DNA from: Psychrobacter sp. LV10R520-6
GTDB lineage: Bacteria; Pseudomonadota; Gammaproteobacteria; Pseudomonadales; Moraxellaceae
Length of the DNA: 64,000 nt
Reading direction: 5' to 3'
Assembly: GCF_900182925.1 (NCBI RefSeq)
Contig: NZ_LT900024.1
Span: 1,426,001-1,490,000 of the forward strand
The translations under genes were made by a program, and so were the position numbers. Positions within the stretch are counted from its first letter, which is position 1. Each line of letters opens with the position of its first letter. The notes below the pieces were generated by a model. That model worked only from the letters and a program-made list of their open reading frames with translations, was not told the origin of the DNA and searched no databases. This document shows, piece by piece, positions 40,679 to 53,421 of the stretch.

Positions 40679-41015
40679 TGGGGCAATCGGTAGGACTCTA
40701 CAGATCAGCTCGACCCCATACTCATCTTTATGGTCATCAATGAAATCAACCATTATCTCGGTTTGCGGCCCGTCTCCGCTTGGGCGAAAAAAGCAGCAGC
40801 CTTGCGTATAATCTCATTGGCTTGTTTAAGCTCCTTATTCTCACGTTCCAGCTCTTTAATACGCTGCTCGAAGCTTTGAGCTTGTACAATGGCTGGTATG
40901 CTTTGTTCAACATGCTTCTTATGCCATGCTCGAAGGGTTTCAGGAGTGTAGTTTTATTTTTTCATTGTCGTATTCTCTCAGATTGTTGAGTCTCCGACAA
41001 TCCCGGGGCGGTTCA
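40677..41015 (-). mobile_element. IS3-family remnant
   Basis: On the minus strand the right-hand end, TGAACCGCCCCGGGATTGTC, reads into a degenerate orfA with an internal stop after the first codons. Its coiled-coil end reads SFEQRIKELERENKELKQAN then EIIRKAAAFFAQAE. The start of orfB follows (MVDFIDDHKDEYGVELICRV), and the element ends abruptly at about 40677. Only some 340 bases of a normal roughly 1.2-kb element remain. Confidence 0.8.
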
Positions 41016-47909: not shown

Positions 47910-48201
47910 AACGGTCATTAGATAGAAATGCGACTCGATAAAATTAAGACTTGAAGCGTGCTTTGGCATATTGGTCACAACTGCTATGGAATAAGCTGGT
48001 AAACTAAACTGTATTTTGTTATAACAACAGCAGTAACTTATATTCTGAGGTGCTTGCTTATAAGCTGAGTCAAAGCAGTGAGTTGCTAAGATTTCAAATA
48101 TCGGCAACGTATCACTGCTCGGTGTTTCAGCGCTTAGCATTTGAGTGATTATAATCCAAGTCCTTAAAGATAAGTCAGTATAAAAAAACAGTTAATACCC
48201 C

Positions 48202-48321
48202 ACTCTCAACTATCATAATTTTTGGCGTAGGCTGTGGCTTTAGCCCAGCGTTTTTGGCAAATTGTTACGATTGACTGGGCTAAAAGCGCCAGCCTACGAT
48301 AGCCCCTATTAAGTTGAGAGT
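48202..48321. repeat. 120-bp palindromic element, copy 1 (intact)
   Basis: Terminal inverted repeats ACTCTCAACT...AGTTGAGAGT enclose an inner long palindrome in which GTAGGCTG-x-GGCTTTAGCCCAG pairs with its complement near 48270-48297. It codes for nothing. A second, inverted copy lies at 52014-53354, split by an IS110 element. This copy keeps the uninterrupted target CCACAGCCTACGCC (minus strand, 48224-48237). It sits in the 452-base gap between queA and fimV, which otherwise shows no gene. Confidence 0.85.
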
Positions 48322-48361
48322 CGCGTAGTTAATATAAATAGACACTATAAAAGGCCTGCGC

Positions 48362-50230
48362 ATGTCTTGGCATTTACCTCATTGCTTTTATCGCTTGACC
48401 ACCACCCATCGGGCGGTGTCAATGGCGTTATTTTGTTCAGCCAGCTCTGTGGCAATGTCAGTGGTAATGTCATCTGGTGCACAAGCGGCAACTATGGGCA
48501 AGACCATCATAACGTCTGCACAGCACGAGCCTTTAGCGGCTAGCATTATAGTCACTGATATTAAAGCGGCTGATTTTTCAGCCAGTCTGACCAATCCTGT
48601 TGTCTATAAACAGATGGGACTGACGCCGACCGCATCAATGACCGTGCGCTTCAAGCCTATATCGTCTACCGCTGGTCAATTATTTATCAGTACGACCCAG
48701 CCCGTATCTAAGCCGTTTGCTGATGTGGTCTTGGCTATTAATGAGGGAGGACAACGTAAGGTTATCCCTAAGACCTTGCTCATGCCTCTTGATGATAGCC
48801 TGCCGATTAAACCCTCTAATACCGTCATAACGACAGCAAAAAAGCCTAACCTGCCGGTAGTTTCAACAACTAACGCGCAACCGTTAACGGTTAGAAAGGG
48901 CACGCCCCCACCATTACTGTCGTCGCCTCGCATTCAGCCACCCACTCAAGCGTTAAATTTGCCGACAGCGTTAATGCCAATGTCCATGCCGCAGATGGGC
49001 AACCTCGTTAATGCTCCTAATAGTGGCTCAAATGATGGTTCAAAAAACACTATCTTAAATAACAGTAGCATACTAACTGCTGTTACTTCTTCAAATGCCA
49101 GTTTGAGCACAAGCAATAGTGCAAGTCCAGCTAACGCTGAGAGCATAAACGCTGCTAATAGCATGGCTTCTAACAACATAGTTTCTAGTAATCTAGCTAC
49201 TAATAAAACAGCCTCAAACAAGACATTATTGACCAATACAAACACTACAACATCAAATAGTAATACGCCCACTACCGGCATAACAGATAAACAGCTCGAT
49301 ATTTTAAACATACAAGTCACACGGCAAATACAGCCTACCAATGCCCTGAAACCCAAGACCCCGAATCCCAAGACCAGTGTATTGGCTACTCAGCCCGCAG
49401 CTGCGGCATCAACGCCAACTGATAATAAAACAACATCAACTGCTGAGCTTAATACTGATAATTCAAACGTACCGCCCAGTAGTGATACCATTAATACTAA
49501 TAGCATGGCCCAACAAACAGTACCGTCTGAGGTCATCGTTAGCGCTTCAGCTAACATTCCAACTAATAGTATGAGTGGTTCTGCGATAAATTACACCGTA
49601 CAACGTAATGATAATTTATGGGTTATCTCGCAGCAGATCGCGGAGCAGAACAACCTTGACATTCAAACGGTCATGACCCAAATTCAGTCTCAAAATCCTG
49701 ATGCTTTTATTGATCAAGATGCCAATCAGCTAAAAGCAAACACTCGACTGAACCTATCTAATTATGACGTAATTCCATCACAACAAAGCCTGCAAGCGGC
49801 TATTAGCGCTCAAAGACAATATACTCAGCGAGTAAGCAAGCCGGTGATCGAAACAGCCGCTCAGCCAAAGTTAACGCCTAAGACATCATCCGAGACTACT
49901 CAAGCCTCTAATCAGGCTACTACTAAAAGTCCTGAGAAACCGGTAACCACTACCACCCAGACGTTGCCAAAAGCGCGTTTTTCTGTCCTCGCTCCTGCTC
50001 GCGATGGTAACGCTTATGGCGCCCAGACCAAAGCGGCGGCGGCAACGGGTAATGGTCTAAGTACAGATATATTAGCAACCCTCAAATCGTCACGAAAACG
50101 TACAGCGGCACAAGCCAGTCGCTTGTCAAAGACGAATAGTACGCTTGGTAGCTATACTAGAAAATTACAATTACAAAACCAAAAACTTGCTGAGCTTCAG
50201 GCTCGTCTTAAAAAATTACGCAATCAATAA
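48362..50230 (+). CDS. fimV: FimV N-terminal part (periplasmic domain with LysM)
   Basis: The 622-residue protein has a signal sequence (cleavage near SSGAQAA, about residue 42), then the FimV N-domain pattern (QHEPLAASIIVTDIKAADFS, PTASMTVRFKP, FADVVLAINEGG). A long Ser/Thr/Asn-rich linker follows (about 160-410), then a LysM-type segment (INYTVQRNDNLWVISQQIAE, about 415-475) and a C-terminal coiled coil (LQNQKLAELQARLKKLRNQ). FimV organises type IV pilus and polar machinery through peptidoglycan binding. Here the frame stops right after the coiled coil; the membrane helix and cytoplasmic part are encoded by the next gene. Confidence 0.85.
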   Translation: MSWHLPHCFYRLTTTHRAVSMALFCSASSVAMSVVMSSGAQAATMGKTIITSAQHEPLAASIIVTDIKAADFSASLTNPVVYKQMGLTPTASMTVRFKPISSTAGQLFISTTQPVSKPFADVVLAINEGGQRKVIPKTLLMPLDDSLPIKPSNTVITTAKKPNLPVVSTTNAQPLTVRKGTPPPLLSSPRIQPPTQALNLPTALMPMSMPQMGNLVNAPNSGSNDGSKNTILNNSSILTAVTSSNASLSTSNSASPANAESINAANSMASNNIVSSNLATNKTASNKTLLTNTNTTTSNSNTPTTGITDKQLDILNIQVTRQIQPTNALKPKTPNPKTSVLATQPAAAASTPTDNKTTSTAELNTDNSNVPPSSDTINTNSMAQQTVPSEVIVSASANIPTNSMSGSAINYTVQRNDNLWVISQQIAEQNNLDIQTVMTQIQSQNPDAFIDQDANQLKANTRLNLSNYDVIPSQQSLQAAISAQRQYTQRVSKPVIETAAQPKLTPKTSSETTQASNQATTKSPEKPVTTTTQTLPKARFSVLAPARDGNAYGAQTKAAAATGNGLSTDILATLKSSRKRTAAQASRLSKTNSTLGSYTRKLQLQNQKLAELQARLKKLRNQ

Positions 50231-50287
50231 TTGCCTAGCGGATCAACGCAGTGCGCTGCAATGATGATCGTAGGTGTGGGAGTAACT

Positions 50288-51898
50288 ATGGATAATATGC
50301 TATATATCATCGCCGGGCTGGTGCTCATTTTACTGGTAGCCGTACTGGTACTGCGCAAAAATAAAGCGCAAAATCCACCAGAACAGCAGCCTATACAGAC
50401 GGGTAGAAATGCGGCAGCCAATGCGCCAATATCAACACACAACGAGGATCGTCATAGTACCGCTCAGCGCGACCCTAATAGCGTAAATAAGTTTGATAAC
50501 ACTGCTATCGCTCAGCGCTTCATGGATCAACAGCGCTATGATAAAGCCATTGAGACCCTAGATCGTGGTTTAATAGAAAAACCTAACGATAACCAGCTTT
50601 TGCTTAAACTCCTTAGCGTCTATGCAACAACTGATCAACTTGATGATTTTTATATAGTCTATGATGCTATCAAAACGCATAGCGATACAGAGACTATTAA
50701 TCAAGCCGATGAGCTAAAAGCTTTGTTAGTTGGAGAGCAAGATCAAGAAATACTGCCAGTCGTAACAGAAGCTGATAACAATAACGGTAATTTCGACGGT
50801 CTAGATTTTGACTTACCTACTGCACAAACTGTCAGTGAAAAAAGCAATGAAGACCGTGTTTTTGATACGGCTACTGCCGAGACTAGCACCAGTACAGAAA
50901 AGGCTGCGACTACCGAACAATCAGAACCTGTCCTTGATCTAAACGATACCAGTGCTGCTAACAATAACGTGGATGACACTTTTGAGCTTACGCTTGGTGA
51001 CTTAGAGTCTGCCGATGACTTAGAATCCGCTAGTAATTTAGAAGCTGATACAGGTGAGCCCGTTGCCACCAACCTCACACCTGTCGAACAGTTAGATATG
51101 AATGAGGAAGAAAGCTCAGTTACGACTGACGACTATCTTATTACGCCAGCTACAGATGACCCAGCTATCAATGAATCAGCTACAGGTAATCCAGTTGCTA
51201 TTGAAAATACAGAAGATGACGACTTTACTCTGGACTTTGATTTGCCTGAGCAAGCGACTACTCCTACAGACCATACCCCTGTAGACACAGCAGAAGACGA
51301 CAGCAGATTGGAAGAGATAAGCTTAGAAGATGATGATTTTGTCTTAGATTTCGCAGACTTAGCGGCTGATGCTGACCTTGATACTGATACGGTTGCCGGT
51401 AATAATAATGATACTGAAAGCAACGCCGTTGCTGCTGCTCCTGCTACAGAAGACGACTTCACCTTATCCTTAGAGGGTACTGATTCATCAGATGCAGAAA
51501 ACAAATCACAGATTGATACACCTACTACACCGGCAACGTTCGATGACACTACATCCATAGATGATGATTTTGATTTCGACTTTGACCCTACGCCCAGCTC
51601 ACCAACGGCAACGACTCCAGTCGAAGTTGAAGAGAGTATTGTTGGCCTCGAAAGCGATATTGAAAACGGTAATAACAGTGTTGATGCTGAAACGGCAGCA
51701 GACTTTATGTCACGTTTTGCCGCAGACTTTGACTTTGTCAAAACCTTAGATAGTAATCAAGTGACTTTGGATTTGGCCGAACAATACCTAAAACTGGGCG
51801 AATATGATAGTGCCAAACGCTTACTTAATGAAGTCATGGCTCAAGGTAATAGCGAGCAACAACATCAAGCCCAAGCGCTCCTCGATCGAACGGCTTAG
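50288..51898 (+). CDS. FimV C-terminal part (membrane helix, TPR and C-terminal domain)
   Basis: I start at the ATG 50288 (GGGAG seven bases upstream). The protein opens with a membrane helix (MLYIIAGLVLILLVAVLVL), then a cytoplasmic TPR-like region (about 75-150). A long acidic region carries repeats of an Asp-Asp-Phe-x-Leu-x-Phe/Leu type motif (DDFTLDFDL, DDFVLDFADL, DDFTLSLEG, DDFDFDFD). The last 50 residues match the FimV C-terminal domain (LDLAEQYLKLGEYDSAKRLLNEVM). Together with the gene before it, this reconstitutes a normal FimV. The two are 57 bases apart with a separate ribosome site. Confidence 0.85.
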   Translation: MDNMLYIIAGLVLILLVAVLVLRKNKAQNPPEQQPIQTGRNAAANAPISTHNEDRHSTAQRDPNSVNKFDNTAIAQRFMDQQRYDKAIETLDRGLIEKPNDNQLLLKLLSVYATTDQLDDFYIVYDAIKTHSDTETINQADELKALLVGEQDQEILPVVTEADNNNGNFDGLDFDLPTAQTVSEKSNEDRVFDTATAETSTSTEKAATTEQSEPVLDLNDTSAANNNVDDTFELTLGDLESADDLESASNLEADTGEPVATNLTPVEQLDMNEEESSVTTDDYLITPATDDPAINESATGNPVAIENTEDDDFTLDFDLPEQATTPTDHTPVDTAEDDSRLEEISLEDDDFVLDFADLAADADLDTDTVAGNNNDTESNAVAAAPATEDDFTLSLEGTDSSDAENKSQIDTPTTPATFDDTTSIDDDFDFDFDPTPSSPTATTPVEVEESIVGLESDIENGNNSVDAETAADFMSRFAADFDFVKTLDSNQVTLDLAEQYLKLGEYDSAKRLLNEVMAQGNSEQQHQAQALLDRTA

Positions 51899-52160
51899 AA
51901 GGTTTAATTCTAATTAGTATTAGCAAGCATTTTATAATAATAGGATGCTTGTTTCTATTTAGTTCTGAGTCTATTTAGCTGTAAACCTACTTTACTGTTA
52001 GTTATATTACGCGACTCTCAACTTAATATGGGCTATCGTAGGCTGGCGCTTTTAGCCCAGTCAATCGTAACAATTTGCTAAAAACGCTGGGCTAAAGCCA
52101 CAGCCTTGTATCTTGACTAGATGCTAAATTTAATCAAATCTTGATATACTTTATCATCTA

Positions 52161-52305
52161 CTCACGAGCATTGTGAGCGTGACCACAGCCTTAGTGCTTA
52201 GACACTGTAACGTAGATTACGCCCAATGCTCATCCTTTCATCTTCACAATCTGAATGGTATCCAAGTGCCTTAGTATAAGTGACACTGAATGAACAAGGG
52301 AAGAT
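52161..52305 (+). ncRNA. Bridge RNA of the IS110 element
   Basis: Two guide loops are readable. The target loop is closed by GAGCATTG (52166-52173) pairing with CAATGCTC (52224-52231). Inside are CCACAGCCT (52183-52191), identical to the left target 52098-52106, a hairpin AGTG-N6-CACT (52193-52206), and CGTAG (52211-52215), complementary to CTACG at 53327-53331. The donor loop is closed by ATCTTC/GAAGAT (52240-52245, 52300-52305). Inside are ATGGTATC (52255-52262), identical to the right end 53320-53327, a hairpin AGTG/CACT (52265-52287), and ACAAG (52294-52298), complementary to CTTGT at 52105-52109. Both right guides end in AG, matching a CT core. The RNA ends next to the transposase start, as in IS621. 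Confidence 0.85.
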
Positions 52306-52311
52306 AATAAG

Positions 52312-53304
52312 ATGACACAGTATATTGGAATAGACATCAGCAAAGCCAAACTTGATCTTGCTTGGCTTAAAGATATCGAAAAACCTAAAGTTAAAACCAA
52401 AGTCTTTAAGAACGACAGTACCGACTTCTTAAAGTTGATTGACTGGCTCAAATCCAACGTGACTGAAGATTTGAGCGACATTCATATCATCTTAGAGGCC
52501 ACTGGCGTCTATCATGAGAACATCGCCTACTACCTGTATGACCAAGGGCTATCCGTTAGTATCGTTAATCCTGCCTTTGTCAGAAGCTATGCGGATAGCT
52601 TAGGCTCTCGTCATAAAACAGACAAACAAGACAGTATTCTACTAGCGCGTTACGCCCATAGTGCCAAACCTAATCTATGGACACCGCCGCCGGCTGAAGC
52701 CCGTCATTTAAAGTCCCTGCTATCTCGCCTAGATGCTTTGCAACAAGACCTAATGCGTGAGCAGAACCGTCAAGAGAAAGCGGATGCCACGGATACTGCT
52801 GTTATCGTTAAAACCTCTATTGAACAGATGATTAGTGCCCTAAAAGAGGCTATAGCTAATCTCAACGATGACATTGATACTCATGTAGAGGATCATCCTA
52901 ACCTTAAACAAGACCAAGTACTGCTTCAGACAATTAAAGGCGTTGGTCCTGCCACCTCAAGACAGATGCTGTCCTTAATGCACAATAAAAGCTTTACTAA
53001 AGCCTCGCAAGCGGCAGCATTCTTAGGACTGATACCCAAGCAAGTGCAGTCCGGTCAGTTTAGAGGTAAAACCCGCTTGGCTAAAAATGGTTCTAGTGCT
53101 ATTAGAGCTAAGTTGTACATGGCAGCAGTAGTCTCAACCAGATGGAATCCTGATATAAAAGCTCAATATGAGCGCCTCTTAGCTAATGGTAAGTGTAAGA
53201 TGCAAGCCATTTGTGCTGCCATGCGAAAACTTGTCCATATCTGCTTTGGTGTGTTAAAACACCAGATGCCTTATCAGCCTCAAATAGCCAAAACTGCTGC
53301 TTGA
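52312..53304 (+). CDS. IS110-family transposase (DEDD recombinase)
   Basis: The 330-residue recombinase has a RuvC-like N-domain: Asp in YIGIDISKAKLDLAW (residue 6), Glu in IHIILEATGVYHENIA (about 60), and Asp residues in HKTDKQDSILLARYA (about 105). It also has a C-terminal Transposase_20 domain (LLQTIKGVGPATSRQML, AAAFLGLIPKQVQSG). The catalytic Ser should be in NGSSAIRAKLYMAA (about residue 262). The gene is intact. IS110 recombinases act with a bridge RNA that specifies target and donor DNA. GGGAAG lies 10 bases upstream of the ATG, overlapping the donor-loop stem. Confidence 0.93.
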   Translation: MTQYIGIDISKAKLDLAWLKDIEKPKVKTKVFKNDSTDFLKLIDWLKSNVTEDLSDIHIILEATGVYHENIAYYLYDQGLSVSIVNPAFVRSYADSLGSRHKTDKQDSILLARYAHSAKPNLWTPPPAEARHLKSLLSRLDALQQDLMREQNRQEKADATDTAVIVKTSIEQMISALKEAIANLNDDIDTHVEDHPNLKQDQVLLQTIKGVGPATSRQMLSLMHNKSFTKASQAAAFLGLIPKQVQSGQFRGKTRLAKNGSSAIRAKLYMAAVVSTRWNPDIKAQYERLLANGKCKMQAICAAMRKLVHICFGVLKHQMPYQPQIAKTAA

Positions 53305-53421
53305 TTATGATTTGGCAAGATGGTATCTACGCCAAAATTATGATAGTTGAGAGTGGGGTTTATATTATATATTTCTATTAGCTGCTCTACTTCTTCTACT
53401 TTTCTTTACTGCGTTTATACT

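Follow-up and report, generated by a model that had tools for sequence, protein, structure and literature searches.

A predicted IS621-type bridge RNA in a Psychrobacter IS110-group element, with a target guide that matches an IS982-type MITE

The window, i.e. the whole 64,000-nt stretch of Psychrobacter sp. LV10R520-6 DNA that was analyzed, contains a complete IS110-group insertion sequence at positions 52107–53328 (plus strand, as are the features below unless noted otherwise). The element is 1,222 bp long, counted from the first base past the left CT core to the last base of the right CT core. It is situated within a copy of a miniature inverted-repeat element (MITE), and MITE and element together enlarge the window's spacer between a fimV-like gene and an asparaginase gene (ansA). 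In the 17 relatives with a measured spacer, taken from the fimV-like to the asparaginase gene, the spacer is 183–258 nt and contains no MITE or element; three motif matches in the spacer test fall inside the fimV-like gene. Two in-frame FimV-like reading frames (named by eye) are found at positions 48362–50230 and 50231–51898 with one stop codon between them, and these may be either two genes or one interrupted gene. The window also shows an ALIL pseudoknot (Rfam RF01497, 84 bits) at positions 40679–40795 on the minus strand. ALIL pseudoknots are usually tied to frameshifting in the IS3 family.

The gene of the element (positions 52312–53304) encodes a 330 amino acid IS110 RNA-guided transposase/recombinase. 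Its sequence matches the Pfam domains PF01548 (DEDD RuvC-like, 6.7e-24) and PF02371 (Transposase_20, 2.2e-21), both over the cut-off, and the NCBIfam model NF033542, “IS110 family RNA-guided transposase” (1.6e-65). By sequence comparison it is related to the transposase of the IS621 structure 8wt6 (2.4e-51 over residues 3–322) and to that of ISCro4 (PDB 9t56, 5.2e-47). The IS621 active site is given as D11, E60, D102, D105 and S241 (in PMC11208158); residues D8, E62, D104, D107 and S247 of the Psychrobacter protein align with these.

The left end of the element is 205 nt (52107–52311), versus 24 nt for the right end (53305–53328). A long left end, a short right end and an RNA upstream of the gene define the IS110 group, and all three are present. 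Assignment to the IS1111 group was considered; it requires a long right end and an RNA downstream of the gene, and the right end here is 24 nt. The dinucleotide CT, named as the core in the preliminary description of this DNA, is found at both ends, at positions 52105–52106 (left core) and 53327–53328 (right core). There is no longer target duplication, and the MITE sequence runs on across the insertion as it does in 17 full-length empty copies. The element almost certainly belongs to the IS110 group and carries a bridge RNA of the IS621 type in its left end.

The genome carries five copies of the element, which are 0–2 bases apart pairwise over 1,223 aligned bases; one of the five has an internal stop. 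A megablast search of plasmid sequences with the element gave no match, and a tblastn search matched 2,782 plasmid records with a best identity of 50.5%.

The target of the element lies within a 130-bp MITE with IS982-type ends, a feature absent from the preliminary description. The left part of this MITE (98 bp, positions 52009–52106) ends at the core and the right part (31 bp) is at positions 53329–53359. The inverted ends are 15 bp, ACGCGACTCTCAACT and ACCCCACTCTCAACT, and the whole is bordered by the duplication TTATATT, at positions 52002–52008 and again at 53360–53366. Flanking duplications of the element-bearing MITEs are 7–9 bp, one of them with a mismatch. Three 980-bp elements in the genome have ACCCCACTCTCAACT at both ends and 7-bp duplications, and their transposase is of the IS982 family (NF033520, 2e-78). 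Because its ends are common to these three elements, the repeat is an IS982-type MITE; it is short and geneless, with IS982 terminal repeats and flanking duplications. The palindromes of the MITE were also considered as REP sequences served by a RAYT protein. The genome has 14 Y1_Tnp matches, with open frames of at most 157 aa, which are IS200-like by size.

All five element copies are found at the same position in MITE copies. The genome has in addition 17 full-length empty MITE copies and one truncated copy. One of the empty copies is in the window (positions 48197–48326, minus strand) with an intact CCACAGCCTACG target. This 12-mer forms the base of a hairpin inside the 130-bp MITE. It is found as an empty exact target 20 times in the genome, 17 times in MITE copies and three times in free REP-like palindromes near 3.093–3.095 Mb; since the target is part of a repeated MITE, about 20 equivalent landing pads are available in the host. 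When one mismatch is allowed there are 37 target sites, versus 5 for a reversed control pattern. As 22 of the 25 exact sites, used and empty, are in MITEs, finding all five insertions in MITEs has a probability of about 0.5. The five insertions therefore show no preference for the MITE beyond the 12-mer. A MITE that itself attracts the element was considered, and the numbers support no more than a match to the 12-mer. The three targets outside MITEs are in a segment (G000:C1:3092800–3095200) with a cluster of REP-like palindrome pairs. REP sequences are reported to be insertion-sequence targets (PMC1525189). In a related genome, G005, near-identical MITEs (95%–98%) number at least eight; no element was found there at E-values up to 1e-40, in a search that gave a match in 9 of the 105 genomes of the genus.

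The preliminary description had placed an IS110 bridge RNA at positions 52107–52311, just upstream of the transposase as in IS621, with an AGTG/CACT hairpin and an enclosing stem in each of two loops. It named a covariance search and a comparison of guides with the insertion sites of related copies as checks. The covariance model used here (R1) was built from loci outside the genus and the strings of the preliminary description were not relied on for identification. Of 23 deduplicated relatives outside the genus, 22 entered the alignment and one (L100) was omitted for a long loop. The sole match of the model in the window is at positions 52165–52308 on the plus strand, with 123.7 bits and an E-value of 2.6e-35 (E-values of this model are rough, as the search tool itself states). 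Thus the RNA is found where it had been described, directly ahead of the gene that begins at 52312. The whole-genome search gave five matches, one per element copy, and the model matches 95 of the 97 element loci searched; at the two missed loci the contig starts inside the gene (L089) or the match starts at residue 42 (L099). An Rfam scan of the window gave no bridge RNA family at the gathering threshold and 3 other matches.

The described fold also stands. Of 28 predicted pairs, 23 are kept despite changes on both sides in one or more of the 22 relatives. The enclosing stem of the target loop has its own other half as best partner in 24 of 29 deduplicated loci. For the enclosing stem of the donor loop this is so in 2 of 29; its observed pairing total is reached by none of 10,000 permutations, and the weaker individual partner preference is due to its conservation. 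Ahead of the modelled RNA, positions 52107–52164 give a hairpin, TAGATG...CATCTA, in the minimum-free-energy fold. This hairpin may be the 5′ stem-loop; its pairing in relatives was judged by eye.

The guide segments can be read from the two loops, and the four matches reported in the preliminary description are present in the sequence. In the target loop, the left target guide CCACAGCCT (positions 52183–52191) equals the left flank plus core at positions 52098–52106, i.e. CCACAGC at 52098–52104 followed by CT. The right target guide CGTAG (52211–52215) complements the right target CTACG (53327–53331). It is followed by AT (52216–52217), a handshake guide that could pair with A53325–T53326 of the donor. 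The two bases are A in 40 of 40 and T in 36 of 40 relatives. The counterpart in IS621 is A81 and U82, whose role is described in PMC11208158.

In the donor loop, the left donor guide ATGGTATC (8 nt, positions 52255–52262) equals the right end of the element at positions 53320–53327. The right donor guide (52290–52298) is in three parts: AT (52290–52291), GA (52292–52293) and ACAAG (52294–52298), which complements CTTGT at positions 52105–52109. The GA is expected to be flipped out. The right donor guide of IS621 is split in the same manner (A157–U158, then U159–U160 flipped, then C162–G165), and its left donor guide, A123–C130, is 8 nt and ends at the first core base (PMC11208158).

One point of the preliminary description is to be corrected. 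The C that follows the left donor guide had been called a mismatch, on the assumption that the second core base T belongs there. Among 40 sequences, 38 have C at this base and 2 have A; none has T. Since T is absent and the IS621 left donor guide also ends at the first core base, the C represents the normal layout, and by this comparison C52263 is placed outside the pairing of the left donor guide. A C after the left donor guide is thus a common feature, which is useful when guides are read from sequence.

Relatives of the element were used to compare guides with insertion sites. The parse made no use of target flanks: element ends were defined by the donor side alone, and the guides were read off the model columns. 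The alignment comprised 98 matches; guides could be read from 93 of them, and a complete left flank was available for 89. An earlier parse with regular expressions had given 6.19 versus 2.75 shuffled (31 guides); it covered 57 of the 98 loci and was replaced because it missed the other 41, among them L040, L041, L045 and L122, which are sister Psychrobacter elements.

Over 42 distinct left target guides, an average of 6.02 of the 7 bases match the left flank. Shuffling of the flanks lowers this to 2.88 (sd 0.18), and none of 10,000 shuffles is as good. Kinship among elements is not removed by shuffling; the use of one row per distinct guide limits it. With all 66 distinct guide-flank pairs the agreement is 5.67 of 7, versus 3.11 shuffled. 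Individually, 35 of the 42 guides match at 6 or 7 positions, another 4 match at 5, and the remaining 3 score 2 or less. The last three (L061, L070 and L131) were retained in the counts; the low score of L131 results from a misplaced guide column, in which the core was read as GC. The second check named in the preliminary description therefore also favours its reading.

The right target guide was compared position by position (n = 51). At each of positions 10, 11 and 12 none of 10,000 shuffles is as good, whereas 432 are as good at position 13 and 18 at position 14, where the agreement is weak. Past the core, the right guide follows the flank over some three bases before the agreement fades.

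Several relatives are directed to other sites. In the same genus, L041 and L122 (the latter from P. piscatorii) have the guide GTATAAC-CT and are found just upstream of an IS3-type transposase pair (two reading frames are seen; the IS3 family was assigned by eye), and the left guide of this sister IS110 element matches at 7 of 7 positions. Two other elements of the genus, L036 and L043, are at REP-like palindromes as judged by eye. The site of L045 fits the right guide (4 of 5) and not the left (1 of 7). L122 and L041 have 600 bases in common, and L037, from a genome of the genus, has 300 in common with L052, a Psychrobacter sp. record; both agree with Psychrobacter as the host genus. Two elements in one genome, L038 and L044, differ at 43 of 1,236 bases; only three of the differences precede the gene in the left end, and all three are in the target loop. 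In genome G028, a more distantly related IS110 element (37% identity) is present in five identical-scoring copies (L043, L046, L048, L050 and L051). Three of these are within about 6 kb, in palindromes, with the guide ACCCAGC.

A promoter is predicted to form only where the two ends of the element meet in the circle. Its −35 sequence, TTGATT, is at positions 53301–53306, and is 17 nt from TATCTT, of which TATCT comes from the right end and T from the left end. In 44 relatives, TTG is found at the 17-nt spacing in 27 and at 10 nt in 12, with other spacings in 4 or fewer. In the 10-nt class, a second TATCTT-like hexamer is found 7 bases on, in examples judged by eye. The predicted arrangement matches the promoter reported to be rebuilt at the joined ends of IS621 (PMC11208158).

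The element has a likeness to bridge RNA/IS110 systems already documented (IS621, seekRNA), and on that account it is taken to work like one; we infer its transcription, circle formation, cleavage and strand exchange from IS621. The element would be excised as a circle. Joining of the right end to the left end would rebuild the promoter TTGATT-17-TATCTT, from which the bridge RNA would be transcribed. The recombinase would then hold the circle junction, ATGGTAT-CT-TGTAT, by means of the donor loop and the target, CCACAGC-CT-ACG, by means of the target loop. Strand exchange at the CT core would result in insertion without a target duplication. The anatomy of the element, the covariation of guide and flank, the five insertions at one MITE position, and the MITE ends with their duplications are the parts supported directly by the sequence.

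The shared position of the five copies might have another origin, in which a single element-holding MITE was moved as a composite by an IS982-type transposase and gave rise to all five; the common site would then be uninformative on RNA guidance. The element does sit between intact MITE ends with 7–9 bp flanking duplications, and three complete IS982-family elements of 980 bp in the genome share the terminal repeat of the MITE. Furthermore, L003 and L004 are identical in both MITE and element, at two sites with different duplications; this pair is compatible with a composite move by the IS982 transposase but is no proof of it, and because of the identity the left flank 7-mer is no proof of separate events. 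The five MITEs holding the element, however, are of four distinct versions that differ at up to 5 of 98 bases, and these hold elements with 0–2 differences in 1,223. For example, between L002 and L005 there are 5 differences in 98 MITE bases and 2 in 1,223 element bases. MITE differences that far exceed those of the element make most insertions look independent, and the comparison favours four or more insertions into pre-existing MITEs. In addition, the MITE version in L003 and L004 is also that of four empty copies, and guide and flank covary in unrelated relatives independently of this MITE. A composite origin of all five copies is considered unlikely. A two-layer arrangement is doubtful as well, though conceivable: the IS982 transposase, by spreading the MITE, would multiply harmless intergenic pads, the bridge RNA would be programmed to the pad, and MITE and element might at times move together. 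If so, the IS982 transposase would give the IS110 element a second, RNA-independent route.

Two other readings concern the RNA itself. Its location directly upstream of the transposase gene is also what would be expected of a structured leader or regulator of that gene, with the guide matches a by-product of picking up flanks. But the two loops follow two different things, the target flank and the element ends, in many lineages, and bridge RNA function has been demonstrated experimentally for IS621 (PMC11208160, PMC11208158), so that a leader is very improbable. Chance matches might be suspected as the guides are short (5–9 nt), and no other support for this was found. The sole window match of an independent model, at E = 2.6e-35, and the shuffle tests speak against chance, which is improbable to a degree that it is counted as refuted. 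The preferred reading is that of an IS110-group element with a bridge RNA, and it suggests that such an RNA can be set to a MITE. With five exact sites used and 20 unused, this one genome amounts to a naturally replicated test of bridge-RNA targeting, to which sister elements in the same genus with guides pointing elsewhere are an addition.

The description of bridge RNAs for IS621 dates from 2024 (PMC11208160, PMC11208158), and the same type of RNA was described as seekRNA (PMC11187229). IS621 targets REP sequences, and IS4321/IS5075 target the terminal repeats of Tn21 (PMC11187229). Members of the IS110 family that target repeats or other mobile elements are thus already documented, and the MITE target is a new detail. 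No IS110 element targeting a MITE was found in literature, mostly outside subscription, on IS110 or bridge RNA together with MITE or IS982, nor in the available parts of PMC9769881, PMC3189936 and PMC2817692.

The closest likeness is to IS621. The transposase is similar by sequence with the active-site residues kept, and the RNA precedes the gene, within the left end. Both have two loops, a CT core, an 8-nt left donor guide and a split right donor guide (PMC11208158), a promoter rebuilt at the joined ends (here predicted), and a target at the base of a repeated palindrome, which in IS621 is a REP. The two differ in the target, which here is CCACAGC-CT-ACG in an IS982-type MITE and in IS621 an E. 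coli REP, and in the base that follows the left donor guide (C here, A131 in IS621). The element is a lineage distinct from IS621. ISCro4 (PDB 9t56), a transposase relative with a solved structure, was compared by protein sequence alone.

IS4321/IS5075 resemble the element as IS110-family members with another mobile element as landing site (PMC11187229). They differ in belonging to the IS1111 group, whose subterminal repeats are longer and whose RNA is at the opposite end, and they target a transposon end rather than, as here, the interior of a MITE. ISEc11 and ISXne4 are an example of related elements with a differing guide and a correspondingly differing target (PMC11187229). They too are of the IS1111 group; the same is seen here across Psychrobacter elements of the IS110 group, whose targets are a MITE, REP-like hairpins and an IS3-family leader.
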